64,000 bases of DNA from Gardnerella vaginalis. GTDB lineage: Bacteria > Actinomycetota > Actinomycetes > Actinomycetales > Bifidobacteriaceae. Location: contig NZ_KQ956802.1 of NCBI RefSeq assembly GCF_001546455.1, positions 2,712 through 66,711 of the forward strand, written 5' to 3'. The translations under genes and the position numbers were made by a program. This document shows positions 7,687 through 58,090 of this stretch, in pieces; the stretch's first letter is position 1, and the number at the start of each line of letters is the position of its first letter. The notes under the pieces are model-generated. The model made no database searches. It was not told the DNA's origin and saw only the letters and a list, made by a program, of their open reading frames with translations.

Positions 7687-9956
7687 GTTAGCGTTACGGT
7701 TGTTGGGTTTCCGCTTTCGTCTAGAACTCTAACTTGAGACCCTGGAGCTGCGGATTGGAACCTAACAGTATGCATAAGATCGCCCAAAGGCGCAGAAATA
7801 TTAACTTTTAGCCCAAGCGATTCAAGTATTCTTTTAGCTTCGTTAGCGTTCTTATTGCGCACATCTGGCATTGTTATAGTCTTTGGTCCCTTAGAAACAA
7901 CCACATCGAGTTTATCTCCCCAATGTAGTTGCGCTCCCTTTTGCACGCTAGCGCTAATAATCTTGCCTTTTTCAACTTTGTCGTTAAACTCTTCGCTGTA
8001 GTTTGGAACGAGTTTTGCTTCGCCAAAGGCTTTGTCGGCCTCTTCTTTTGTAAGATTAACAACGTCTGGCATAGAAACAGGCATAGGACCCTTAGAAAGA
8101 ATCACGGTAATGTTTTTATTGTGATTCATTTGCATTCCAGGGGTTGGTGAAATTTCAACAACGCAACCCTTAGGGATTTCCAAAGAGTAAATGTCATCGC
8201 TCGATTTATGCGTAATAGAAGTAAATCCAGCCTTCTTTAAAGCTTTTATAGGATTTTTCCCTGCGCTAGAAGTTGGATCCATAATGTCTTCTGGAATAGT
8301 GGACTTGCGTATGCCTTTGGAAACAACAACTTTCAAGCGGCCATCATTGCGCTTAGAAACTTTACCGCCACTAAAATCTGGATTAGTGAAAATAATGTTT
8401 CCTTCGGGTATGTTGTCGCTAAAGTCTTTAGAAACGGAATAAGGAATATTAGATACTTTAAGCGTGCGCTCGTAATCTACCCAAGGAATGTTTGTTATTT
8501 TGCACGCACTCTGCGATGCGCATTCTTGCGTGCTTGGTTTTGGCAAAGACCAGTAGCTTCCAGGGCCTAAATAGTACCAGTACGCTCCAAATGCAGCTGC
8601 TGCTAAAACAATTGCCGCGCAGCTGGAAGATGCAATTACAATGTTTTTGCGCGTGTTTTTGCGCGTTTCTTTGCCGTTGCCGTCTGCATTATTAGACTTA
8701 TTTCGTTTAGCTTTTAAACGTTCACTAATAAATTGCGGAGCGCGCATTGTAACAGTGAGCATATTACTGTCGTTAAAGTCTTCAAGCGGATTGCTGTTTG
8801 TTGAAGTTGTTGAAGTTGAATAGTTTGAAGATTCCTCACCAAAATCGAAGCTCTTTGTTTCTAAGGCTTGAGTGGCATTAATATCGGTTGTTTTATCAAT
8901 ATCCGCAGTCTTATCTATATCTGCAGTTTTATTTAGCACTTCTTCGTTTTCTAAAGAGTTAAGGTTATTAGCAAAGCTAGGAGGAAGTGGTATTTGAGAT
9001 TTTAGATTAGACTTTTTATCTTCAAACTTGCTTGCGATTATCGAGTCTTCAAGAGGTTGATTTTCATCGTTTGAATTTGCATCAAACTTATATTGCCATT
9101 CTTGTTCGCTTAATCCAGCGCAAATGCCTCTTAAAATGTTAAGCGCTTTATTGGCATCGGCTGGTCTTTTTTCCATTTCTCGAGCGGTAATAGCGCTAAG
9201 AAAATCAGCAACAGAAGAATTGATATCTTTGCAAACAGTTTTTATAGAAGGAGTATCTTCGTGAACATGCTTAAAAACAAGCGTTACGGGATTATCTGCG
9301 TTAAAAGGAACACGTCCAGCAAGCATTTCCCAAGCCATCATTCCTGCAGAATATAAATCTCCCTGCGGAGTTGCAAGATTCTTCTCAATCATTTCTGGTG
9401 CAAGGTATGCGGCCGTTCCAAGAAGAAGCCCTGTAGAAGAAAGAGTGGCTTGAGATACTGCTCGCGCAAGTCCAAAATCAGTGATTTGCACGTTTCCGCG
9501 GTCGTTAATCAAAATATTTTCTGGCTTAATATCTCTGTGAACAACGCCAGCAAGATGTGCGGATGCAAGACCGTCTAAAGTTTGAGCCAGCACGCGTAAA
9601 GTGTCTTTTACGCTAAAAGTGCCGTATTTGTTCATCTCGTATCTAAGATTTACGCCATGAACATATTCCATAACTAAGTAGTCAAGTCCTTCAAATTCGC
9701 CAGTATCGTAGACTTGAACAATATGCGGATTTGCGATTGCAGCAGCAGAAGTTGCTTCTCTGCGGAACCTTGCAATAAATTGTTCTCGGTGGATTCCCTG
9801 AGCAAGTTGCGTATGCATGATTTTAAGCGCAACAGGGCGATTAAGACGCTCATCTTGCGCTTGATAAACAGTGGCCATGCCACCTTCTGCTATCTTTTTA
9901 ACTATGCGATAGCGATTTTCAATACACATTCCTGGTTGCGCTTGAACTTCACTCAT
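7677..9956 (-). CDS. pknB: PASTA-domain serine/threonine protein kinase
   Basis: A 759-residue membrane receptor kinase of the PknB type, which senses cell-wall fragments and phosphorylates division and wall-synthesis proteins. Kinase domain about 15-280: glycine loop EGGMATVY, Lys in VALKIM (about 45), catalytic HRDIKPEN (140-147) and DFG (160-162). A low-complexity juxtamembrane stretch includes a threefold (K)TADID-like repeat. One transmembrane helix lies at about 440-463, followed by about four extracellular PASTA repeats (motifs such as MPDVVNLTKEEADKAF and MPDVRNKNANEAKRILESLG). Neighbouring polyprenyl synthetase and rpoD are the usual actinobacterial context. Symbol by family; paralogues could exist elsewhere. 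Confidence 0.92.
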   Translation of the reverse strand: MSEVQAQPGMCIENRYRIVKKIAEGGMATVYQAQDERLNRPVALKIMHTQLAQGIHREQFIARFRREATSAAAIANPHIVQVYDTGEFEGLDYLVMEYVHGVNLRYEMNKYGTFSVKDTLRVLAQTLDGLASAHLAGVVHRDIKPENILINDRGNVQITDFGLARAVSQATLSSTGLLLGTAAYLAPEMIEKNLATPQGDLYSAGMMAWEMLAGRVPFNADNPVTLVFKHVHEDTPSIKTVCKDINSSVADFLSAITAREMEKRPADANKALNILRGICAGLSEQEWQYKFDANSNDENQPLEDSIIASKFEDKKSNLKSQIPLPPSFANNLNSLENEEVLNKTADIDKTADIDKTTDINATQALETKSFDFGEESSNYSTSTTSTNSNPLEDFNDSNMLTVTMRAPQFISERLKAKRNKSNNADGNGKETRKNTRKNIVIASSSCAAIVLAAAAFGAYWYYLGPGSYWSLPKPSTQECASQSACKITNIPWVDYERTLKVSNIPYSVSKDFSDNIPEGNIIFTNPDFSGGKVSKRNDGRLKVVVSKGIRKSTIPEDIMDPTSSAGKNPIKALKKAGFTSITHKSSDDIYSLEIPKGCVVEISPTPGMQMNHNKNITVILSKGPMPVSMPDVVNLTKEEADKAFGEAKLVPNYSEEFNDKVEKGKIISASVQKGAQLHWGDKLDVVVSKGPKTITMPDVRNKNANEAKRILESLGLKVNISAPLGDLMHTVRFQSAAPGSQVRVLDESGNPTTVTLTII

Positions 9957-45855: not shown

Positions 45856-47673
45856 ATGAGCACCAACATCTCAAAACAAAAGCGTGATGACCTGATTGCA
45901 AAAATCGGTCAGATACGCACTTTCATATCTGCCGCCCCGCAGGACGAAAACACGGGCAATCTGCTGACCTACCTTTCCGAGTTGGAGAAAGATGTTAATG
46001 GTAAAAAGTATGGTCTTGTGTTTGAAGAACACCGCGAGGAAATTGACGATGTGCTGGATACGCATACGCCTGTGCTGACCGAGGACAAAAGCCTTTTCAT
46101 CGACAACGGCGGTCAAATGAATTTTCTCATTGAGGGGGATAATCTCGCTTCTTTGAAACTATTGGAGAAAACGCACAAGGGCAAGATTGACCTTATCTAC
46201 ATAGATCCACCTTATAACACCGGAAACCAAGATTTTATTTATGATGACACGTATCTTTCAGCTACCGATGGATACCAACATAGTAAGTGGATTTCGTTTA
46301 TTACTGAAAGACTTAAAATTGCGAAAAAGTTTCTTGCGCAAGATGGTGTTATTGCAATTAGTATTGGATACCAAGAGGTACATAACCTCATGTTGATGTG
46401 CCAAGAAATGTTCTACGAAAAGAATGTTACTTGCGTAACGGTTCAAACATCGGGTGGAAAGCCAAACGGTGGTTTTAATATTACATACGAATTTATTGTA
46501 TTTATTACCCCAAATGATTTTTCTCCCAATGCGAGCGAATCTGCAATGAACGAATATGCGTCACCTTACCACGGAATGAATTTAGCGACATTCGACCAAG
46601 TACAGAGACCGGGACAAGCCTATCCGATATTTGTTGATAAGGATGGAGTTTTTTTAGGATGCGGAAAATCCCTTGCCGAAAGGGTAAAGGCAGGAGAATA
46701 TAACGGCGAATTGCAAGATTTCATATATGACTATTCGGAGGCGCCTGAAGGCGCGTATGCTATTTGGCCTGTTACACGAAAAGGTGTGCCTTGTGTATGG
46801 CGTTTAATTCCGTCCCGTCTTGCGAAAGATTGGGAAAAAGGTTACATCAAAATTGTACCTCAAAATCCTGGCAAGACAAAAAATTTATTTACAGTTCAGT
46901 ATCTTTCCGATGGTGTAATTAAAAAAATCAAAAGTGGTGAATTGGAAACACATAGATTATCCGAGGATAGCCGTATTCCTACTGTCAATGTTGATAATTA
47001 TCGAACTGCTGGAACAACTATTCAATCTATTTGGACGGAAAAAGCCTTTTATACTACTAACGGTGGCAATGAAATGGCTGATATTCTTGGTAGTAAAAAA
47101 GCATTTTCCTACCCAAAACCGCTTGACCTTGTATCAGAGGTAGTGCAACGCATATCCAAAGAAAATTCAACCATTCTTGATTTTTTTGCTGGCAGCGGCA
47201 CAACGGGACATGCCGTTATGAAGCTGAATGACGAAGATGGCGGAAACCGTCGTTTCATCCTATGCACCAACAATGAAAACAACATATGCCGTGATGTGAC
47301 CTACGAGCGTATCAAGCGCGTTATCGACAAAGAGGGGTACGCCGCGAGCCTGAAATATTACAAGGTGGATTACATTCCCATCTCAGAACGTCTTTATTAT
47401 GAGTATGCGGACGAGCTGCTCTGTCATATCCGCGAATTGGTGGAGCTTGAAAACGGCATCAATTTTGTCGGCAACGCGGAAATTGCAATTGTGCTGACCG
47501 AAGAAGAACTTGCCGTTTTTATGGCAAATATTGATGCTTACAGTAAATGCCGCAAGCTGTATATGGGACACGACCTCTTACCCGACGAGGAACAGGAAAA
47601 GTCCCTTGTCGAACACGACATAGAGATAAATATTATTCCCGATTACTATTATCGGGAGTTGCAGGAGGTGTAA
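45856..47673 (+). CDS. mod: Type III restriction-modification methyltransferase (Mod)
   Basis: A 605-residue N6-adenine DNA methyltransferase of the beta class: catalytic motif DPPYNTG (about 116-122) comes first and the SAM-binding motif DFFAGSGTTGHAVM (about 442-455) late, with the target-recognition domain between. It protects host DNA and supplies specificity to Res. AGGAGG precedes the ATG. Base composition is uneven: the centre (about 46240-47130, the recognition domain) is clearly richer in AT than the two ends, a mosaic typical of recognition-domain exchange. Res starts on the base after its stop. Confidence 0.92.
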   Translation: MSTNISKQKRDDLIAKIGQIRTFISAAPQDENTGNLLTYLSELEKDVNGKKYGLVFEEHREEIDDVLDTHTPVLTEDKSLFIDNGGQMNFLIEGDNLASLKLLEKTHKGKIDLIYIDPPYNTGNQDFIYDDTYLSATDGYQHSKWISFITERLKIAKKFLAQDGVIAISIGYQEVHNLMLMCQEMFYEKNVTCVTVQTSGGKPNGGFNITYEFIVFITPNDFSPNASESAMNEYASPYHGMNLATFDQVQRPGQAYPIFVDKDGVFLGCGKSLAERVKAGEYNGELQDFIYDYSEAPEGAYAIWPVTRKGVPCVWRLIPSRLAKDWEKGYIKIVPQNPGKTKNLFTVQYLSDGVIKKIKSGELETHRLSEDSRIPTVNVDNYRTAGTTIQSIWTEKAFYTTNGGNEMADILGSKKAFSYPKPLDLVSEVVQRISKENSTILDFFAGSGTTGHAVMKLNDEDGGNRRFILCTNNENNICRDVTYERIKRVIDKEGYAASLKYYKVDYIPISERLYYEYADELLCHIRELVELENGINFVGNAEIAIVLTEEELAVFMANIDAYSKCRKLYMGHDLLPDEEQEKSLVEHDIEINIIPDYYYRELQEV

Positions 47674-49863
47674 ATGATGGAACTAAAAATGTTTCAAAAA
47701 ACGGCTGTAAAGTGTTTGTTTGAGGCGATGGATACCTCTGCCAGGGACATCATCTTAAAAAGTCCCACGGGCAGCGGAAAGACCATCATTCTCACCTACT
47801 TTATGCACCAATACACGCAGAGCTATCCGAAAACCGTGTTTGTGTGGCTCACACCAGGCAAGGGTAACCTTGAAGAACAGAGCAAGGCGAAAATGGACAA
47901 GTATATCCACGCCGCGCAAACCAAGCTTCTTGCCGATGTGATGGCGGCGGGATTTGAGGAAAACGATTGCTGTTTCATCAACTGGGAGAAGCTGACGAAA
48001 AAAGGCAATAACGCCCTCAAAGACAGCGAACGCACCAATTTCATTGAGCATATCGAACATGCTTTGAATGACGGCTTGCGCTTTGTGGTTATCGTGGACG
48101 AGAGCCATCAGAATAACACGGTCAAAGCGGATGAGATTATTCAGTATTTCCATACGAATAAAATTATCCGTTGCTCTGCTACGCCGAAGGGCATAAAAAA
48201 TGCGGAGATTATTGAAATCCCCGAAGAAGATGTAATTGCAGAAGGTCTGATAAAGAAAATGCTCATTATCAATGAAGATTTTCCGCAGAGCATAGAAACC
48301 ACCGACCAGAACGCCTATCTGCTTGAAATGGCACTTGCCAAGCAGCGCGCGCTACGTTCCGCTTTCCTTGCGGCAGATAAAGACATCAATCCGCTGATTG
48401 TGGTGCAAATACCGAATAAGTCCGAGAAAATGCAGGATGATATTGAGCGTTATTTTGACACACAAGGTATCACCTATGAAAATCAGCAGTTGGCGGTGTG
48501 GCTCTCCGATATGCACGAAAACCTGGAGGGCATCGACGAGCCGAACGCAAATTCCGTTGCTGTTATCATCAAGCAAGCCGTCGCTACGGGTTGGGACTGT
48601 CCGAGAGCCTATATTCTGGTGAAGCTCCGCGACAACATGGACGAAACCTTTGAAATACAGACTATCGGACGTATCCGCCGTATGCCCGAAGCGCATCACT
48701 ACGGAAGCGATTTGCTGGATAGCTGTTACCTCTATACCTTTGACGAAAAGTTTACGCAGGGTGTGAAAATGAGCCTGGGCAAGGGCGCGTTGGAGGCGGC
48801 TACGCTGTTTCTCAAAAACGAATACAAAGAAATCACGCTGACCAGTGAACAGCGGACGATGGTTACGAATACCCGCAATCCGCAGACTGCGCTGCTTGCT
48901 GTTGCCAAATACTTTGAGAAAGAGTTTAAGACGGGCGGCAATAAAGCGGAAAATCTGACGCGCTTACAGACGGCGGGCTTCGTGTTTGTAGACGGCATTT
49001 TGCGCCATACATATTCGGGCGAAACAGCAACCCTCGATTTCAATGCCTGTGATATGAACACCGTAACCATTGAGGAAAAGCTGAACACCCACCAACACGG
49101 ACACTTGTATCACAACTGTATCGGTAGAATCGGTATGGAAATTGGTATGGAATATAATTATATGAATACCATTATCCGCAAGCTGTTTGATAAGAATTTC
49201 AAGTATGCGCGTAAAATTCTTACTTTAGAGCCAAGAGAGGTTTACATCTTTGTCATTAACAATGCAGACCGTTTGAAGCACATCGTGCGCGAAGCAATGG
49301 CGGCGGAGTTGGCGCAGCTTCAGTTGGATATAAAGACGGTATCTAAAGTGCAGTTCCGTATTCCGCAGAGTTGTCTGTTTACCTATGACGGAACGGCGAA
49401 AACACAGGTGGAAATGAAAAAGAACGTGTATAGCGGCTATCTTTCCTCTGCCGAGGTTCGTTCTTCTTCGGAGCGCAAGTTTGAAAAATACTGCGAACAC
49501 GATGACAGTGTGGATTGGATATATAAGAACGGCGACAAGGGTAACGAATACCTTTCCATCGTTTACGCTGATAACTCCGAAAAGCAGAAGAATTTCTATC
49601 CCGACTACATTATTTCCGTTCGCGGTAAGATTTGGATTATCGAAACCAAGGGCGGTTTTGATCGTTCCGGCAACAGCCAGGATATTGATATTTTCACGCC
49701 GAAGAAGTTTAAGGTGCTGAAAGATTATCTTGAACGCTATGAGCTGAACGGAGGCATCGTACGCTACGATGAAAAGAGCGAGGAATTGTGTATCTGTATG
49801 GATACCTATTCCGATGACATCGGCAGTGACAGTTGGAAAATTCTATCTGATGTTTTAATGTAA
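47674..49863 (+). CDS. res: Type III restriction enzyme (Res)
   Basis: A 729-residue SF2 helicase-nuclease. Walker A SPTGSGKT (about 30-37), Walker B VDESHQN (about 141), motif III SATPKG and motif VI QTIGRIRRMPEA form the motor; the C-terminal PD-(D/E)xK endonuclease reads FYPDYIISVRGKIWIIETKGG (PD about 645, ETK about 657). With Mod it cuts unmodified DNA after meeting oppositely oriented sites. Start ATGATG right after the mod stop, with GGAGG just before. Complete active sites suggest a working system. Confidence 0.92.
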   Translation: MMELKMFQKTAVKCLFEAMDTSARDIILKSPTGSGKTIILTYFMHQYTQSYPKTVFVWLTPGKGNLEEQSKAKMDKYIHAAQTKLLADVMAAGFEENDCCFINWEKLTKKGNNALKDSERTNFIEHIEHALNDGLRFVVIVDESHQNNTVKADEIIQYFHTNKIIRCSATPKGIKNAEIIEIPEEDVIAEGLIKKMLIINEDFPQSIETTDQNAYLLEMALAKQRALRSAFLAADKDINPLIVVQIPNKSEKMQDDIERYFDTQGITYENQQLAVWLSDMHENLEGIDEPNANSVAVIIKQAVATGWDCPRAYILVKLRDNMDETFEIQTIGRIRRMPEAHHYGSDLLDSCYLYTFDEKFTQGVKMSLGKGALEAATLFLKNEYKEITLTSEQRTMVTNTRNPQTALLAVAKYFEKEFKTGGNKAENLTRLQTAGFVFVDGILRHTYSGETATLDFNACDMNTVTIEEKLNTHQHGHLYHNCIGRIGMEIGMEYNYMNTIIRKLFDKNFKYARKILTLEPREVYIFVINNADRLKHIVREAMAAELAQLQLDIKTVSKVQFRIPQSCLFTYDGTAKTQVEMKKNVYSGYLSSAEVRSSSERKFEKYCEHDDSVDWIYKNGDKGNEYLSIVYADNSEKQKNFYPDYIISVRGKIWIIETKGGFDRSGNSQDIDIFTPKKFKVLKDYLERYELNGGIVRYDEKSEELCICMDTYSDDIGSDSWKILSDVLM

Positions 49864-49880: not shown

Positions 49881-50570
49881 GTGAAGGTAATAGAGCATCG
49901 ACAAGTAAATACAAATGGAACAGCTAAAGTGCAGTTTTTGCGTATTGACCCCGAAGATTTATCTGCAACTTTGTCAGATATTTTGACCGCTTTAATGAAT
50001 TTGTCGTGGCTTAGCAAATTCGATGAAGATTACGAAATTGCAGCCTTTGCCTCAAGAGCCAATAAAACTATAAAGGTCATTAAGGAGAAATTCTCTAAAT
50101 CCATAGACGATAAAATTTCCAAGGATGCCGGCGAGTATGTTGTATCCGAATTAGCGAGAGAGGCAATCGTAAACGAACTTCATTACTTGGATATACCTTT
50201 GTCAGAGTTACTTGGAAAGAAAAAGTCCGGAAATCCGGGATTCGATTTTCATAGCCAAAATATTTATACAAATACAGTCATATTTGGTGAATCAAAGTAT
50301 GTTGCGACAACAACTGCGTATTCCAGTGCTTTGCCACAGATGGTAGATTTCATTAAAAAGGGTAAGGACATTGAAGATTTGCCCGAATTAAAACCTTTTT
50401 GTTCAGACGCAGCACTTAATAGAGCTTATAGCGGAAGCAAGGGTTTTGCTGCGGCTTTTTCTGCCAAAAGTACAAAATCGGATAGTATTATCAATAACAT
50501 TATGGGTCGTTCAGATTTCCAATCACTACTTTTATTTGAGGAAGTATTATTAGTGGCAGTGAATCTATGA
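49881..50570 (+). CDS. hamA: HamA-like nuclease (DUF1837), Hachiman defence
   Basis: A 229-residue protein fitting the DUF1837/HamA nuclease of the Hachiman anti-phage system. The segment DAGEYVVSELAREAIVNELH, then GKKKSGNPGFDFHS and VIFGESKYVATT, shows a PD-(D/E)xK-type core: Asp in GFDF (about 122) and Glu/Lys in GESK (about 137-139). HamA is held inactive by HamB and degrades DNA when released. Start GTG 49881 with AGAGG upstream, 17 bp after res. Its stop overlaps the next start by 4 nt (ATGA). The AT-rich composition differs from the res gene, so the pair was joined to the operon separately. Confidence 0.75.
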   Translation: MKVIEHRQVNTNGTAKVQFLRIDPEDLSATLSDILTALMNLSWLSKFDEDYEIAAFASRANKTIKVIKEKFSKSIDDKISKDAGEYVVSELAREAIVNELHYLDIPLSELLGKKKSGNPGFDFHSQNIYTNTVIFGESKYVATTTAYSSALPQMVDFIKKGKDIEDLPELKPFCSDAALNRAYSGSKGFAAAFSAKSTKSDSIINNIMGRSDFQSLLLFEEVLLVAVNL

Positions 50571-52870
50571 ATAGTATTTTAGAAAATGGGAAGTTGATAA
50601 GTCGAATTAAAGACGGGGTAAATTTGCCCGAAATAGCAAGCTATGCTCTTGAATGCTTATATCGAGATGGACCAGTAGATACAGTGGTTCTTGAAATTGT
50701 TTCGTATCTAAAAATATTTCAACCTGCATTCTTTGCTACCATTGAAAATGACGTGATAGAAATAATGGGGTTGTTCTATAAATCGCCCACACCAGAAACA
50801 CTTCAAGGTGTAGTGTTTGATATATATTCTCAACAAATCAAAGAACGCTGGGGTAATAATTATACTCCAATGCAGGCGGATATTCTAAAACAAATCAACT
50901 CAAAGCAATGTTTCAGCTTTTCTGCTCCGACAAGTACGGGAAAGTCGTTTGTGTTCCGCAATGTGATTATGAAATCGCAAAGAGATATTGTTGTAGTTGT
51001 TCCTTCGAGAGCACTAATAAACGAATATCATGACCGTGTATGCAGCACCTTAGATGTCAAAGAAGTGAATGTCTTAACATTTGTTGAGCGCATCAATACT
51101 AAGCATGCAAAAAGAAATGTGTTTATTCTTACTCCTGAGCGTGCTCGCGAATTGTTTAAGAACAAGTCTTGGCTGGATGTTGAATACATACTTTTTGATG
51201 AAGCCCAGTTAAGTGATGAAAAATCAACACGGGGAATATACTTTGACGGTATCGTTCGACGTGCATTGAAAGTTTTTCCAAATGCGAAATTTATATTTGC
51301 CCATCCTTTTATATCAAACCCGCAGGCACAGTTAAAAAAGAATAATATTGGGCTGGATGAATCAACATTTTCGAGACAGTACAAGCAAAAAAATGTTGGA
51401 CAGATATTTTATACTCATAATCCTAATTCGGGAGAATTTTGTCATTTCGGAACAAACAATAGAATATTTGGGGAACGTAAAATATTATCTTCTTATGATC
51501 CCATTGAACAGTCGCTAAGGAATGGCGGTAGCGTTCTGATATACGCTGCGAAAACACAGATTCTTAACAAAAAAATATTTCAACGCTTCAATAAATATTT
51601 TGAGTTCTGCCCCACAATTACAAATCCAGAGGCATTAGAGCTAATCGAAAGTCTCCGTGAATACATTGGAGCATCAAAAAACGATGTGAATTACTATAAT
51701 TCCGACATGATTGATAACCTCATGCGCGGAATTGTATCCCATCATGGCTCAATCCCTCTTACTGCTAGACTCATTCTTGAGCATTTTACTCAAAGAGGGT
51801 TCTGCAAATTATGTTTTGCTACCTCCACATTGGAGCAGGGGATAAATATGCCCTTTGATGTAGTTTATATCGACAGATTTGAGTCCTCAAAATCTTTGTC
51901 TGTAAAAAATCTTATTGGTCGTGCAGGGCGCTCGACCACGAGTAAGCAATTTGACATAGGTAGCGTCATAGTTCACACCTCTGCTATGACATCATTGCGT
52001 AAAACACTTCTAAAAAACGAACCTATTTCAGAGATATCTCATTTGGATATTAAAAATGACCAAATTGATGAAACCTACCAGGAGTTTAAGGACGCAATTG
52101 TTAATGAGACATTTAATGATGAGTATAATCTGACCGAAAAAGATGTTGAAAAAATTAAAGCGGAAGAAATCAAATTAGTGATACCAACATTGTTAGATAT
52201 ACTGTTTATTGATGAAAACATTATTACTACCGAAGAAATTACTCCAGAGGTCAAAGACCTGTTTCATAAACTTTACGAGTCCTATCTCGGACGTCCTTTA
52301 GTTGAATCAGAGAAAAATGTACTGAATGAAGCAATTAGAATCATACTCTGGAAAGTGACCGGCAGAACTTTTAGAAATATTTGTCAGATTAGATACGCAC
52401 GAGTTGCACAAGTGAATGAACGCAGGAAACATCCTGAACGTATTGAATCTATATACGCCAAATATATGGTTGGCTATAATGAAATACCCAATAAGAATCT
52501 GTCCAATTACCCTAAAATACCAAATACAATCCTTGCAAAAAATGTGGATTACGATACGGTTGTATTTGATACTTATGATTTTTTGGATAAAATGATTGGC
52601 TTCAAGTTGAGTGACATTTACTATGCAGTTTTTCATGAATACTATTTGGATACAAATGATGAGCGCTCCCAGAAAATGGCGAATTATATTAAGTTCGGAA
52701 CAGCTGATGCAACAGAGATTTGGATGCTAAAATATGGATTTGACTTTGAAGATATTGAGTGGCTGAAGCCATATGTAAAATCCATTGGGGAAGAAGAAAT
52801 TTGCTTTCATAGTTCTATTGCAGAACTGAATAATGAGCAGAAAAGACTTATAGAAAAGTTTCTCTACTAA
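50567..52870 (+). CDS. hamB: HamB-like SF2 helicase, Hachiman defence
   Basis: A 767-residue DEAD/DEAH-type helicase of the Ski2/Hel308-like style. Walker A APTSTGKSFVF (about 121), motif Ia VVVVPSRALINEY, DEAQ in YILFDEAQLSDE (about 211), HHGSIPLTARL, FATSTLEQGINMP, and motif VI NLIGRAGRSTTSKQ (about 451). HamB scans DNA and holds or frees HamA. Translationally coupled to hamA by ATGA. Somewhat shorter than some described HamB proteins; the pairing with a DUF1837 protein is the main argument. Nothing but short AT-rich sequence follows for 175 bp. Confidence 0.75.
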   Translation: MNSILENGKLISRIKDGVNLPEIASYALECLYRDGPVDTVVLEIVSYLKIFQPAFFATIENDVIEIMGLFYKSPTPETLQGVVFDIYSQQIKERWGNNYTPMQADILKQINSKQCFSFSAPTSTGKSFVFRNVIMKSQRDIVVVVPSRALINEYHDRVCSTLDVKEVNVLTFVERINTKHAKRNVFILTPERARELFKNKSWLDVEYILFDEAQLSDEKSTRGIYFDGIVRRALKVFPNAKFIFAHPFISNPQAQLKKNNIGLDESTFSRQYKQKNVGQIFYTHNPNSGEFCHFGTNNRIFGERKILSSYDPIEQSLRNGGSVLIYAAKTQILNKKIFQRFNKYFEFCPTITNPEALELIESLREYIGASKNDVNYYNSDMIDNLMRGIVSHHGSIPLTARLILEHFTQRGFCKLCFATSTLEQGINMPFDVVYIDRFESSKSLSVKNLIGRAGRSTTSKQFDIGSVIVHTSAMTSLRKTLLKNEPISEISHLDIKNDQIDETYQEFKDAIVNETFNDEYNLTEKDVEKIKAEEIKLVIPTLLDILFIDENIITTEEITPEVKDLFHKLYESYLGRPLVESEKNVLNEAIRIILWKVTGRTFRNICQIRYARVAQVNERRKHPERIESIYAKYMVGYNEIPNKNLSNYPKIPNTILAKNVDYDTVVFDTYDFLDKMIGFKLSDIYYAVFHEYYLDTNDERSQKMANYIKFGTADATEIWMLKYGFDFEDIEWLKPYVKSIGEEEICFHSSIAELNNEQKRLIEKFLY

Positions 52871-53045
52871 AAACTTGGCAAAAGCATCAAACCGTTACCA
52901 ATGCATCAAAATGAGACAATAGGAATGTGGGTAAGTACTCCTTCGGGGTTATATGCCAAAAGCGTGTAAAGCTAATATGATAGATATTTTTTGAAATAGA
53001 ACTAGACAGATTAGCTTATTAATAATAACTCATATGCAAGCGCAA

Positions 53046-53088
53046 GTATCAAAACTATTTCCTTAACGCAACAATTTTGATACACTTG
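53046..53088 (+). repeat. 43-bp direct repeat with inverted arms, copy 1
   Basis: Begins GTATCAAAACTATTTCC and ends TTTTGATACACTTG. The arms GTATCAAAA and TTTTGATAC form an inverted repeat. An identical copy lies at 56735-56777 in the same direction. This copy ends 4 nt before the ATG of the HTH gene, so it covers its promoter. Confidence 0.9.
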
Positions 53089-53092
53089 TGTT

Positions 53093-53860
53093 ATGTCTAT
53101 TTTTGTGAATGATACTCTTCTTACGCGTGAGGAAGCTGCAGCCAAGCTAGCAGTTAGCACTCAAAGAGTTAGCGCATTATGCTCGAATCATTTACTAACA
53201 ACGTACACATTTGGAAGTAGGAAGATTTTAATTTCACTAGATTCTGTAAATCGTTATAAACAACAAAACTCTAAAAGTGGTAGAGCATATGCTCCGTCAT
53301 TAGCTTTTGCTGCATTGTTTATGCTTAGTGGTTACAAAGTTTCGTGGATTAATAGGCAGCAGAAGTATCGTATAGAAGCATATTTGCGTTCGATTAGCCC
53401 GCAAGAGCTGGTTAGTCGATCTAAAAATCGCGCAAAAACAATGGAGTATTGGTGTAGAAAATCGCGTTTAGCAGAACTTTCAAATCACTTGATACTTTCT
53501 GCTGCAACTGGGAATATGCACTCACAATTCCAACTTACACAAACTGACAAAATAGAAGGATACGTAAGCAGCATCAAACTAGGAGATTTAATAAATAAGT
53601 TTCATCTTAAAAATAGCGAAGATGGTGTAAGTAGTTCAATGGCCAACGTTAAACTTCGTGTTATTGAAGATTCTAAAGTTTTTGATTTTATTCTCCAAAA
53701 TATGTCTTTGCATATTACAGAATGCACAGAAGAAACGCTGGCAAAATCCTTTATGCCAATCGCAGTGTGTGCTGCAGATTTGGCTGAATCTGTTGATGTT
53801 CGCGAGCGACAAGCAGGATTAAACAAACTTGCGGAATTGCTTGCTAAATATAATCACTAA
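53093..53860 (+). CDS. HTH-domain antitoxin/regulator partnered with a nucleotidyltransferase
   Basis: A 255-residue protein with an N-terminal MerR/excisionase-type helix-turn-helix (TREEAAAKLAVSTQRVSALC, about 10-29, then a wing with RKILISLDSV) and an all-helical C-terminal part without known motif. It is followed by an AbiEii-like nucleotidyltransferase gene, so it fits the antitoxin of a type IV/MenAT-like pair; such antitoxins repress their operon. It starts 5 nt downstream of the 43-bp repeat, whose symmetric arms are a likely binding site. No ribosome site is visible, so the message may be leaderless. Confidence 0.65.
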   Translation: MSIFVNDTLLTREEAAAKLAVSTQRVSALCSNHLLTTYTFGSRKILISLDSVNRYKQQNSKSGRAYAPSLAFAALFMLSGYKVSWINRQQKYRIEAYLRSISPQELVSRSKNRAKTMEYWCRKSRLAELSNHLILSAATGNMHSQFQLTQTDKIEGYVSSIKLGDLINKFHLKNSEDGVSSSMANVKLRVIEDSKVFDFILQNMSLHITECTEETLAKSFMPIAVCAADLAESVDVRERQAGLNKLAELLAKYNH

Positions 53861-53944
53861 ATATAATCATGCAATAAAAGAATAAAAATTATGCCTTTTG
53901 CTAAAATTTAAAAATAATATTTGGGAGTTTTGAGAGGGGTTTTT

Positions 53945-54691
53945 ATGATTGACATAAGTGTATCTACACCTACAGTTGAAGTTTCTAGCAGTGCACACCC
54001 GTGGAGTACGATATATGCACTATCTAAATCGTGTGATAGTTCACTATGGCTTTTAACTGGCGGACTTATGGTTCAGTTACATGCAATAATGAATGGAATT
54101 ACAGCACGTCCTACTTTGGATGCTGATTTATTGATTGATGTAATTTCTAATAAGGATAACGTTCGTAAAGTTTATAATACTCTAAATAATTTAGGATTTG
54201 CATTACAAATTGGCTTAACTGGATATGCAACTAGATTAACGAATCGCAATAATGATATTGTTGATGTGTTGATAGCTGATCATACTCCAAAAAAGCTATT
54301 TGGTTTTTTAAATATCTTTAATACTCCACTTTTATCCATGCCGGGTGGAACTCAAGCAATAGAACGAAGTATGCTTGTAAAACTTATTGATAGGCATGAA
54401 AACAATGAAGCAATGCTAAGAATTCCAGATTTGCTTGGAGCGTTAATATTGAAGAGCGCTGCTTATAATGCAGATAATATGGGGGACAGGGAAAAACATT
54501 TGTATGATGCAGCGCTAATAGCATCTTTAATAGATAATCCAGATTTTGAAGCTAAACGATTGCACAGTAAGAATGATTATAAAAGATTAAGATTTCTAAA
54601 ATCAAAACTTACTAAAGATTCAATATATTGGGATGTGCTAGATGCCGAGCATAAATTAAACGGTCTAGATGTGATTAATACGCTTGTATAA
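53945..54691 (+). CDS. AbiEii/MenT-like nucleotidyltransferase toxin
   Basis: A 248-residue NTase-fold protein. The signature is LLTGGLMVQLHAIMNGITAR (GG motif) followed by PTLDADLLIDV (the two metal-binding Asp in DAD), then DIVDVLIADH with the third acidic residue. A later lysine-containing helix reads GALILKSAAYNADN, then REKHLYDAALI. This is the AbiEii/AbiGii pattern, whose members block growth by modifying tRNA or other targets. ATG 53945 with GAGAGGGG upstream is preferred to a TTG 24 nt earlier. Pairs with the HTH gene 84 bp upstream. Confidence 0.75.
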   Translation: MIDISVSTPTVEVSSSAHPWSTIYALSKSCDSSLWLLTGGLMVQLHAIMNGITARPTLDADLLIDVISNKDNVRKVYNTLNNLGFALQIGLTGYATRLTNRNNDIVDVLIADHTPKKLFGFLNIFNTPLLSMPGGTQAIERSMLVKLIDRHENNEAMLRIPDLLGALILKSAAYNADNMGDREKHLYDAALIASLIDNPDFEAKRLHSKNDYKRLRFLKSKLTKDSIYWDVLDAEHKLNGLDVINTLV

Positions 54692-54751
54692 CTTTGCATA
54701 TGATATTTGTGTAAAAAATTTAAACAATGATCTATAAAGAAGAATAAACTT

Positions 54752-55120
54752 ATGAGAAGAAATATGGATTTAGTTCGCGAAATTTTAATTGAAGTTTCTA
54801 AAAGTGATAAAGAAGTTAGAGCAAGCGACATTGCTGAGAAAAGTAGTAAATACTCTCTTGAAGAAATTATTTACAACATAAAAATAATGGGGGAAGGTAA
54901 TTTAATTAATGTATATATCGATGAGCGCGAAGTTGGCGTTGTAGATGCTTACATTATGGACATAACATGGCATGGCAATGAGTTTCTTGATTCTATAAGC
55001 TCTAACGAAATATGGGAAAAGATAAAAAATAATTTTTCGGATAAAATTATCAATATTCCTTTTGATATTCTCACTAGTTTGGCTAAATTGTACCTAAAAA
55101 GTAAATTAGGCTTATTTTAA
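54752..55120 (+). CDS. DUF2513 family protein
   Basis: A 122-residue protein starting MRRNMDLVREILIEVSKSDK and containing the NIKIMGEGNLI and DITWHGNEFLDSI segments typical of DUF2513, a small winged-helix-like family common on phages and islands. Function unknown. Directly downstream of the nucleotidyltransferase gene on the same strand (60-bp gap), inside the 43-bp repeats. It ends before a perfect bidirectional terminator. Confidence 0.8.
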   Translation: MRRNMDLVREILIEVSKSDKEVRASDIAEKSSKYSLEEIIYNIKIMGEGNLINVYIDEREVGVVDAYIMDITWHGNEFLDSISSNEIWEKIKNNFSDKIINIPFDILTSLAKLYLKSKLGLF

Positions 55121-55140
55121 TTATTTTTTACTCTATTCAT

Positions 55141-55183
55141 CAGTTTATCTTGCATAAATATTAATTTTATGCAAGATAAACTG
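55141..55183. terminator. Bidirectional terminator
   Basis: A perfect 17-18-bp stem: left arm 55141-55157 (CAGTTTATCTTGCATAA), right arm 55167-55183. It separates the convergent DUF2513 and ApeA-like genes. Confidence 0.85.
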
Positions 55184-55199
55184 ATTCAGTATGCGTGTT

Positions 55200-56588
55200 T
55201 TATATAGATGCTTCATTGTATTTAAATATGTTCGAATTAAGTCTTTTAAGCATTGTCGGTAGATCAGCTCCAAGCTGCTTGCCAATCCATAATCTAATAA
55301 TATTCATAGAGCAAATATTAATTCTGTACATTTTTTCATAGTCTTTCGGAGTTTTTTCCATATTTTCGTTAGCATCATCATGTTTATTTTTCTTATAAAT
55401 ATCATTCATTTCTTTTACCCAATCAAAATCCTTTATATCTATTGGAAAATATTTGCCTAGTTCTTCTTTTATAGTGTCTAATGCACAGGAAAAATATCTC
55501 AATTCCTTAATTGTTTTTCCCTTTTTCTTTTTCATCCTATCTTCACGACCTGTACTTTTTATTATTTCCCACCCAATATCTTCTAGTGCAACACCTAAGA
55601 TTATATTCACAGATTCAACTGGAAGATTATTTTGTTCTTTTGCTATGTGCGATATTATTCCCATTGCTCTTCCATATCTTTGCAATAATTCAAACCATTT
55701 TTCTATTCCACAAATATTAATATCGTCAAAATCAAACAAGAATTGTTTATTATGCTTTTTATCAATGTTTTGCGCATAAGCATTTAAATGATGAAGAACA
55801 TGGGACCATTTTACTGTTGAATCATTGCAAGTATTATTGTTTTCCACTCCTACTTCCATTTTTGAAAATTCGCATCGCTCTAATTTAGATATAGAGATAA
55901 GATTTAAAATCCAATTATGAATTGAAATATGCTTTTCCCAATTCAATTCAGCTTCACTATGAGTCTCAATAAATGCTTCTTCTGTAAAGCTTACAATACT
56001 GCCATTTTTTGATATTTTTCTTACCTGCTGGTCGATAGCAAGCGACAGACTGATGGGTGATTTATTGCTTTCATTTTGCATTGAATTTATTTTGCATAAC
56101 TCTTTGCTACTAGATTTTTTAATATCAATTTTTATACTTTCGCCATCATCGGAAAGATTACTAACGCTAATTCCTCCCGATACGAACCAATCATATAGAT
56201 TTGAACAACTCGTTCTCAAATTAGTTATTTTTTCGAATTGTTTTTCATCTGAACCAACGATTATGTAGTCGCATGTAATTGTTGCAATTCTAATTGGGCA
56301 CATTACATCCTTGCGTGATTCTGTATCTCTACATCCTACTAACGTATATGTTTTACTTGAGGATAAAACTTGCAAAATATTAGGTACAGGCAATCTATTT
56401 ATTGCATCAGATTTTATATGTGTAACTCTTCCATCTAAAAACTGACCACTAAGCTCTTTGAATAATACAGACAGTTCAAATTTCATTCCGTTATCATGTA
56501 GCATAACTACAGTTTCAGAAGAATCGTTATTCTCTGTCTTCAAAAAACCAAGAACTGGTTTAGTTAAATCAAGACTTTTATCTTCCAT
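55200..56588 (-). CDS. ApeA-like protein with degenerate HEPN region
   Basis: A 462-residue AT-rich gene product. The N-terminal part (about 1-150) resembles the ApeA N-terminal domain: a run of beta-strands with VMLHDNGMKFELSV, NRLPVPNILQVLSSSKTYTL (the P-x-I-x-G/S and tLvgc strand), then SNLYDWFVSGGI. The C-terminal part is helical like a HEPN domain. ApeA is a HEPN RNase acting in abortive anti-phage defence. The usual R-x(4-6)-H is not clear here: the aligned place reads MNDIYKKNKH, so the Arg may be lost. Family call tentative. It lies inside the 43-bp repeats, opposite in direction to the toxin-antitoxin genes. Confidence 0.45.
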   Translation of the reverse strand: MEDKSLDLTKPVLGFLKTENNDSSETVVMLHDNGMKFELSVLFKELSGQFLDGRVTHIKSDAINRLPVPNILQVLSSSKTYTLVGCRDTESRKDVMCPIRIATITCDYIIVGSDEKQFEKITNLRTSCSNLYDWFVSGGISVSNLSDDGESIKIDIKKSSSKELCKINSMQNESNKSPISLSLAIDQQVRKISKNGSIVSFTEEAFIETHSEAELNWEKHISIHNWILNLISISKLERCEFSKMEVGVENNNTCNDSTVKWSHVLHHLNAYAQNIDKKHNKQFLFDFDDINICGIEKWFELLQRYGRAMGIISHIAKEQNNLPVESVNIILGVALEDIGWEIIKSTGREDRMKKKKGKTIKELRYFSCALDTIKEELGKYFPIDIKDFDWVKEMNDIYKKNKHDDANENMEKTPKDYEKMYRINICSMNIIRLWIGKQLGADLPTMLKRLNSNIFKYNEASI

Positions 56589-56734
56589 AATCTCTTAATC
56601 TCCACTAGGTTTCTACTTTTAATGAGAATATTTTAATATACAAATGTAGATTACTACAATTTATTGTTTGCAGTTTTAGCACTATAAACCAATGCAGCAA
56701 TCAATAATTTCGCTTGAAGATATCATATACCCAC

Positions 56735-56777
56735 GTATCAAAACTATTTCCTTAACGCAACAATTTTGATACACTTG
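56735..56777 (+). repeat. 43-bp direct repeat with inverted arms, copy 2
   Basis: Identical to 53046-53088 over 43 bp and in the same direction, 3689 bp downstream. It does not precede an obvious gene here; 147 bp separate it from the ApeA-like start codon on the other strand, which it may also regulate. Confidence 0.9.
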
Positions 56778-56992
56778 CGCACTAAATTTATAAATTAGAT
56801 TTGGTATACAAACAAAGTCAATGTTGTGCAAGAATGCAATATTTACTAATATCCTTTATAGGAGTCTTCCTGCGTTGAAAGTCGGTTTCATGCCGTCGGT
56901 AGATTTACTCACCTTAGGCGTTGCGTGGGCTCCTTTACTTTCGCTTATAACATATGAATCATTAAAGACTATAAAACAGTTGGAATATACGA

Positions 56993-57055
56993 AAGCTAGT
57001 CATACCCTCAAACCAACTCATTACGAGATTAAGGGGTAAGAGGAGCCCTAGCCTT
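56993..57055. ncRNA. Hairpin element A (repeat of element B)
   Basis: Outer arms GCTAG (56995-56999) / CTAGC (57048-57052) and inner CCTC (57006-57009) / GAGG (57040-57043). The element and its downstream flank to 57087 match 57981-58075 at roughly 70% identity. Base changes between the two keep pairing, which supports a folded RNA or recognised DNA hairpin. Unknown class. Confidence 0.45.
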
Positions 57056-57076
57056 CACTTCGATTCTATCATATAA

Positions 57077-57261
57077 GTCTTTACCTAATACGCAGTGGTA
57101 ATCCTTGAAGCGCAATAAGTAAATAAAGAGTCCCGAACAGACGAAGTGTCCAGGACTCACAATCCACTATAGTCTTTCCCGCATACGCGGGGTTGATCCC
57201 ATTTTAGTGTATTCTTTACGCTGTTTTTTGAGATCTTTCCCTCATACGCAGAGGTGATACT
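57077..57261 (+). CRISPR. Degenerate type I-E-like CRISPR repeats
   Basis: The best repeat, 57172-57200 (29 bp), contains CCCGCATACGCGGGGTTGAT, with the palindromic core and GATCCC end of actinobacterial I-E repeats. A second, decayed copy is at 57233-57261, exactly 61 bp later (29-bp repeat plus 32-bp spacer). A third, poorer match (GTCTTTACC..TACGCAGTGG) is at 57077-57104. No cas genes and no further units are present, so this is a relic of an array end. A hairpin GAGTCC/GGACTC lies between the first two. Confidence 0.55.
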
Positions 57262-57288
57262 ATAAATATTGTGATACAGTATAACCAG

Positions 57289-57353
57289 CGTGGGGACCTC
57301 GGCAACCAGTTTTCAAGACTGGAACATCAGTCTGAGGAGCACCCCACGTTTTT
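57289..57353 (+). ncRNA. Structured leader-like element ending in a terminator
   Basis: Closing stem CGTGGGG (57289-57295) / CCCCACG (57342-57348) is followed by TTTTT. Inside are CCTC/GAGG and either CCAGT-TTTCAAG-ACTGG (57306-57322) or AGACTG-gaacat-CAGTCT (57316-57333), which exclude each other. It lies about 95 bp before the 98-aa gene. It could be an attenuator, riboswitch-like RNA or a small RNA. Confidence 0.5.
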
Positions 57354-57980: not shown

Positions 57981-58090
57981 AAAGAGCTGGTCATTCCCCC
58001 AAACCTACCCCGTGAAGGGCCAAGGGTAAGGGGGAGCCCCAGCTCTCAATTCGATTCTGTCATATGGGTTTTTACATCTTCGTGTGCTAT
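57981..58090. ncRNA. Hairpin element B (repeat of element A)
   Basis: A long imperfect hairpin: AGAGCTGG (57983-57990) / CCAGCTCT (58039-58046), CCCCC (57996-58000) / GGGGG (58030-58034), TACCC (58006-58010) / GGGTA (58024-58028). The 3' flank (CGATTCTGTCATATGGGTTT) also matches element A. The stretch 57889-57980 before it shows nothing. Confidence 0.5.

Follow-up and report, generated by a model that had tools for sequence, protein, structure and literature searches.

A putative operator palindrome of an AbiE-like operon recurs at the junctions between defence modules in Gardnerella

We analysed a stretch of 64,000 nucleotides from Gardnerella vaginalis (contig NZ_KQ956802.1, positions 2,712 to 66,711; hereafter the window), in which two identical 43-bp direct repeats, R1 and R2, enclose a helix-turn-helix (HTH) gene, a nucleotidyltransferase (NTase) gene, a DUF2513 gene and an ApeA-like defence gene. 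The repeat (R) was compared with 112 genomes of the genus, allowing at most 3 mismatches. We consider it quite likely that R is the operator of an AbiE-like operon made up of the HTH and NTase genes, and that its additional copies provide crossover homology at the junctions between defence modules. A phylogenetic footprint, the pattern of junctions and one exact repeat-by-repeat size difference between genomes, all of them computed, underlie this reading.

The two copies (53046-53088 and 56735-56777) agree at 43 of 43 positions and lie 3689 bp apart from start to start; with one mismatch allowed, the match between them grows to 46 bp (53043-53088 and 56732-56777). A pattern search allowing up to 3 mismatches found no third copy in the window or in the whole 1.49-Mb assembly, and the number of such copies expected in the window from 100 dinucleotide shuffles was 0. 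The 9-bp arms GTATCAAAA and TTTTGATAC, with 20 bp between them, are part of a longer symmetry of 14-bp arms around a 10-bp centre: the core of R is an imperfect palindrome of 38 bp, with arms GTATCAAAACTRTT and AACAATTTTGATAC and the centre TCCTTAACGC, whose arms carry 2 mismatches in the window and 1 in most relatives. Comparable palindromes (14-bp arms, 10-bp centre, at most 2 mismatches) were found at four sites in the 64 kb, two of which are R1 and R2. The distance from copy 1 to the ATG of the HTH gene is 4 nt from the end of the 43-mer and 9 nt from the end of the symmetric 38-mer. An earlier note on this DNA had described two exact copies 3689 bp apart, inverted arms about 20 bp from each other, a first copy ending 4 nt ahead of the HTH start codon and exactly four enclosed genes of a toxin-antitoxin/DUF2513/ApeA-like module, and our check of the sequence agrees with all of this, apart from the greater extent of the symmetry. 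Both window copies have an A at position 12 that is absent from R in most relatives, which is consistent with a recent duplication or conversion within the window lineage.

R is very probably the promoter-operator of the HTH gene, as the phylogenetic footprint strongly supports. Homologues of the HTH protein were found in 38 of the 112 genomes. At the five intact Gardnerella HTH genes, the distance from the end of R to the ATG is exactly 9 nt. Bifidobacterium homologues with 36-47% identity are preceded by GTATACAGAACTATT-N10-AATAGTTCTGTATAC or a sequence little different from it, at 8-9 nt from the start codon, and more distant homologues by palindromes of like build with other arms, for example ATAGTCAAAACTAT...ATAGTTTTGACTAT and ATACCGTTAATTATT...AATAATTAACGGTAT, placed 8-10 nt before it. 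Across nearly all Bifidobacterium homologues that were read (28-47% identity), the arms measure 14-15 bp, the centre 10-12 bp and the gap to the start codon 8-10 nt. In 19 distinct Bifidobacterium palindromes, 98.2% of the arm pairs are kept, two-sided changes number 12 versus 2.5 in shuffles, a slide of the register destroys the pairing, and the centre varies freely. Covarying arms around a free centre are what a site for a dimeric protein would be expected to look like. The right arm contains TACAAT in the Bifidobacterium homologues and TACACT in the window, in both cases at -12 to -7 of the start codon, a position that fits the -10 box of a leaderless promoter; in B. pseudolongum, leaderless starts make up 15% of the mapped starts (PMC4782308). 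A generic sigma-70 scan did not list the TACACT promoter, and the -10 assignment therefore depends on conservation and position. The suggestion of the earlier note that the repeats are an operator bound by the HTH protein thus has good support for copy 1 as an operator, while the binding stays a prediction. R was also considered as an RNA hairpin, its minus strand having a predicted fold of -12.9 kcal/mol, and this candidate was set aside in favour of a DNA operator, because the palindrome lies ahead of the predicted transcript start and is not followed by a T-run. An Rfam scan of the region gave no match for the repeat; only a tRNA reached the gathering score.

The HTH and NTase genes stand side by side in the window, as they do in the majority of HTH-positive Bifidobacterium genomes, an arrangement that looks like that of an AbiE toxin-antitoxin pair. 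We do not assign the pair to AbiE, because both proteins score under the curated cut-offs and the HTH protein matches no AbiEi model in Pfam or PADLOC, giving only below-cut-off matches of the HTH_17/excisionase type. The window NTase matched Pfam AbiEii/DUF1814 (PF08843) at E 0.018, under the cut-off, and the PADLOC AbiEii model at E 1.7e-4; four of six family members matched AbiEii at E<=0.01 (best 6.4e-4), and the motif TGGL...RPTxDxDLL is conserved in the family. Structure predictions for the NTase and the HTH protein gave no usable models (predicted local distance difference test, pLDDT, 35 and 40), sequence searches of the PDB gave no usable match, and no relatives of the NTase were found in viral contigs.

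The likeness to type IV AbiE systems (S. agalactiae AbiEi/AbiEii and M. tuberculosis Rv2827c/Rv2826c) lies in the operon of an HTH regulator and a nucleotidyltransferase and in the inverted repeat over the promoter, here a palindrome found genus-wide 8-10 nt before the start, whose right arm holds the proposed -10 box. In AbiE, the antitoxin acts through such repeats as a repressor of the operon that encodes it (PMC7319586; PMC3985639), so that autoregulation is demonstrated for AbiE and predicted for the HTH-NTase pair. Unlike in AbiE, the regulator is of the HTH_17 type without an AbiEi match, the AbiEii scores are weak, the start appears leaderless, and a single palindrome (arms 14-15 bp, centre 10-12 bp) stands in place of 23-bp repeats 3 or 13 bp apart. 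The regulator proposed here also resembles RptR (PMC12255303) and BrxR/CapW (PMC9122601), small dimeric repressors of a defence or toxin-antitoxin region that act on repeats in their own promoter. RptR differs in acting on tandem 6-bp palindromes at one promoter, whereas the copies of R lie kilobases apart at junctions and outlast the regulator gene. We found no description of this AbiE-like pair in Bifidobacterium.

We propose that a dimer of the HTH protein would sit on both arms of R, covering the -10 box TACACT, and would thereby shut off the leaderless HTH-NTase transcript. R2 and the copies in relatives would be duplicated or left-over operators at defence-module junctions, and such near-identical, short copies in the same orientation most likely provide the homology at which crossovers remove, fuse or swap entire defence modules. 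It is probable that the extra copies are crossover points of this kind. Binding, repression and toxin activity are what we infer in this scheme, together with the recombination pathway discussed below.

Beyond the genome of the window, R was found in 11 of the 112 genomes, each of 1.5-1.8 Mb, with 1-3 near-identical copies per genome; two further copies carry a 1-nt deletion. The named records with the repeat are G. vaginalis PSS_7772B, 1500E and NR010, G. swidsinskii GS 9838-1, and Bifidobacteriaceae NR047 and NR021. The exact repeat had no match in GTDB or in viral contigs, the region upstream of the HTH gene had none among plasmids, and a degenerate R pattern matched only Gardnerella/Bifidobacteriaceae records and no viral contigs. 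Solo copies of R, which occur also in HTH-free genomes, are 95% identical in pairs, versus about 74% in the adjacent intergenic DNA. The simplest explanation of this similarity is that crossovers at R homogenise the copies; it could also stem from a protein of the wider gene pool that binds R, or from some other function. Solo palindromes are present as well in Bifidobacterium genomes without this HTH gene (L062:3961-4000, L063:4010-4049, L061:3983-4022 and L061:6042-6081): in two species (L062 and L063) they lie downstream of rplA, and in L061 the two are 2.06 kb apart, one directly ahead of another HTH_17 gene.

The neighbours of R differ between genomes. To its left we found the Hachiman-like module, ApeA, a GIY-YIG/Schlafen helicase, a KAP/PifA-like gene, a block with a 98-aa gene, and a type IIG MmeI-like gene that is intact in G030 and present as remnants in G079, G112 and G009; in G079 and G112, AbiU stands one position farther to the left. 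To its right are HTH or its remnant, a conserved non-coding block, a DUF3800 gene or a tRNA flank, and the modules at R junctions also include CRISPR-Cas I-E. Left and right neighbours combine variously, the Schlafen module having three different right sides. Homology breakpoints are about fourfold enriched at R, which we regard as a strong hint and not a clean test: within intergenic sequence near R, 64 ends of high-scoring segment pairs lie at most 12 bp from R, versus 12.6 expected, and when nearby ends are collapsed the count is 27 versus 7.1, the maximum of 2000 random placements being 21. The exact size difference was found between G130, which has two R copies 2241 bp apart, and G131, which has one: the two loci differ by exactly one R-bounded 2241-bp block, and their outer flanks align, one with 95% identity across 2.3 kb and the other with 91% across 7.9 kb. 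Wherever clpC and the tRNA cluster are in reach, the copies of R share one orientation relative to them, which fits recombination between direct repeats and speaks against the scattering of a small transposable element. G079 has the last 62 codons of the type IIG MmeI-like gene in duplicate (L018:952-1137 and 8071-8253), once next to clpC and once cut exactly at R.

In several relatives, the R loci lie inside the region from clpC to tRNA-Gly, where they flank the type I-E locus to its left and right; this is the variable region given as the site of the G. vaginalis CRISPR-Cas locus in the available part of PMC3559282; the repeat is not mentioned in that part. The R locus of the window genome, in contrast, is on a contig other than those with clpC and the tRNA-Gly/Cys/Val/Val cluster (C13 and C17; L084 and L085), and no R was found near clpC or the cluster in the stretches of these contigs that were read. 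This separation suggests a rearrangement in this strain. The R locus of the window adjoins a LysR gene that in G009 comes after the tRNA cluster.

The earlier note had offered a second interpretation, in which the two copies are the ends or the target duplication of a mobile defence cassette, here one that would carry the four enclosed genes, and had named in advance two findings that would speak against it: unrelated DNA between the copies of related strains, and the repeat without HTH gene or cargo. Both were found. Relatives hold 2-3 copies separated by unrelated DNA, and there are repeats that lack the HTH gene or the cargo. Two perfectly identical copies that enclose exactly four genes would suit such an element, but the block contains no transposase or recombinase, the four genes are together in no other genome that was read, and in genomes without a second copy, R would serve as the operator of the HTH gene itself. 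A movement of the cargo as a unit between two R copies was not encountered, and the parts of the block are separate in G021, G079, G111, G112 and G133. R-HTH occurs without the NTase in G021, G111 and G079 and with a truncated NTase in G112; in G021, the end of the HTH gene directly meets the sequence that corresponds to window position 56812; in G133, part of DUF2513 and ApeA come first, then R, and there is no HTH; and in G030, G130 and G131, only about 45 first bp of HTH and an NTase-like piece follow R, beside type I-E cas3. A mobile cassette is therefore highly improbable.

How R copies would mediate exchange, and whether they have another function, bears on the remaining explanations. 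RecA-dependent recombination between short repeats is the default pathway, and Gardnerella is reported to recombine often (PMC3559282). R might instead be a dedicated site at which a trans-acting recombinase exchanges defence cassettes in the manner of an integron. Clean exchange points at R, combinatorial neighbours and uniform orientation would agree with this, as would a centre that is invariant in Gardnerella though free in other Bifidobacterium. A 414-aa tyrosine integrase, 98-100% identical between species (for example L060:6239-7483), lies near R-HTH at about 16 Bifidobacterium loci, in nearly all of them directly upstream of the palindrome and the HTH gene, which suggests a recent spread of the HTH pair on an integrative element. 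However, no Phage_integrase match was found near R in six Gardnerella genomes (G000, G021, G111, G130, G131 and G133), and R is not generally the attachment site of the integrase, because only G035 has R on both of its sides. The operator role fully accounts for R in other species, and homologous recombination yields the same pattern of R-bounded gain and loss, that is the one-block difference between G130 and G131 and the clustering of breakpoints at R. We consider a dedicated site distinctly doubtful, and it is similarly doubtful that a toxin-antitoxin operator has been recruited as one, so that a trans recombinase, perhaps guided by the HTH protein, would shuffle immunity modules without a local integrase. 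In chromosomal integrons, repeats surround defence genes together with a toxin-antitoxin pair, and modules can be shuffled. The pneumococcal tvr locus likewise has repeats around defence genes and a toxin-antitoxin pair, with shuffling of modules (PMC6265443). Unlike in both of these, no local recombinase or integron integrase was found near R, the repeat would derive from an operator, and the differences seen are between species only and not a shuffling within a strain. Selection for regulation, rather than exchange, would keep the copies if the HTH protein bound both R1 and R2 and co-regulated neighbours such as ApeA. R2 is located 147 bp ahead of the start of ApeA, a Schlafen-type gene is likewise divergent from R in G111, G130 and G131, solo R is conserved above its flanks, and RptR governs an entire defence island in this manner (PMC12255303). 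But R2 points away from ApeA, as does its -10 box, it remains with the same neighbours in the HTH-free genomes G130, G133, G009 and G030, and the gene beside R differs from genome to genome, so that we hold such a regulon to be unlikely. R is a short palindrome found at several sites, some without an associated gene, as would be expected of a small transposable or repetitive extragenic palindromic (REP)-like repeat scattering on its own, yet there are only 1-3 copies per genome, in a single orientation and limited to defence junctions in Gardnerella, and no target duplications were seen; this explanation can hardly be correct.

Several points weigh against the reading of R as an operator whose extra copies serve as crossover homology. 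Solo copies stay conserved without the HTH gene, beyond what an operator alone explains. The palindrome is not adjacent to the start codon at three distant HTH loci, being further upstream in L087 and L089 and not found in L092. The breakpoint test was made on related genomes, at loci picked for carrying R, and 38-43 bp is short for RecA-dependent recombination.

Table 1. Coordinates of R and of the surrounding genes and features in the window
Feature	Position	Strand	Basis or remark
R1, palindromic operator core (predicted), 38 bp; arms GTATCAAAACTATT / AACAATTTTGATAC, centre TCCTTAACGC	53046..53083	+	Exact repeat; layout and start-codon spacing shared with Bifidobacterium HTH homologues
Proposed -10 box TACACT	53081..53086	+	Sequence reading; -12 to -7 relative to the A of the HTH ATG (leaderless promoter)
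HTH gene, 255 aa, N-terminal HTH_17/excisionase-type domain; proposed antitoxin and autorepressor	53093..53860	+	HTH_17 E 5.4e-5, under curated cut-off
AbiEii-like nucleotidyltransferase (NTase), 248 aa; proposed toxin	53945..54691	+	Weak AbiEii matches, conserved motif, constant HTH neighbour
DUF2513 gene	54752..55120	+	PF10711 E 1.8e-22
ApeA-like HEPN defence gene	55200..56588	-	ApeA_NTD1 E 2.9e-17; HEPN_Apea E 1.2e-4, slightly under its cut-off
R2, second copy of the predicted operator core	56735..56772	+	Exact repeat; recurs with adjoining non-coding block in G009, G030, G111, G130, G133
Conserved block typeB past R2, without clear coding content	56773..57160	+	Pieces 81-92% identical behind R in relatives
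Hachiman-like module left of R1	49881..52870	+	HamB 50567-52870 E 1.5e-58; HamA candidate 49881-50570 by position only
Type III restriction-modification pair, N6_N4_Mtase then ResIII	45856-49863		Adjoins Hachiman-like module

The gene in the HamA position (229 aa) had no match among the Pfam, PADLOC and NCBIfam models and may be a divergent HamA. A perfect 20-bp inverted repeat (55139-55185), probably a two-way terminator, separates DUF2513 from the convergent ApeA gene and is also present in G133. Two degenerate type I-E CRISPR repeats lie at 57165-57190 and 57236-57262, and no cas gene was found next to them; relatives have cas3 of a full type I-E system to the right of R and an HTH remnant. 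A conserved structured RNA candidate at 57287-57350 (-27.3 kcal/mol, z -2.7, with a T-run behind it) had no Rfam match and occurs in G079, G112 and G130 at 87-88% identity. A 54-bp direct repeat (57031-57084 and 58022-58075, 78% identical) lies inside a hairpin-like GAGCTGG...CCAGCTC sequence, which recurs beside R in relatives.

A precise operator is now proposed for an AbiE-like pair that is widespread in Bifidobacterium. The turnover of whole systems in defence islands that have no obvious transposases still calls for an explanation, and R would offer a testable case of it in a human vaginal genus, in which a regulatory sequence of 38-43 bp may double as exchange homology at the seams of defence modules.

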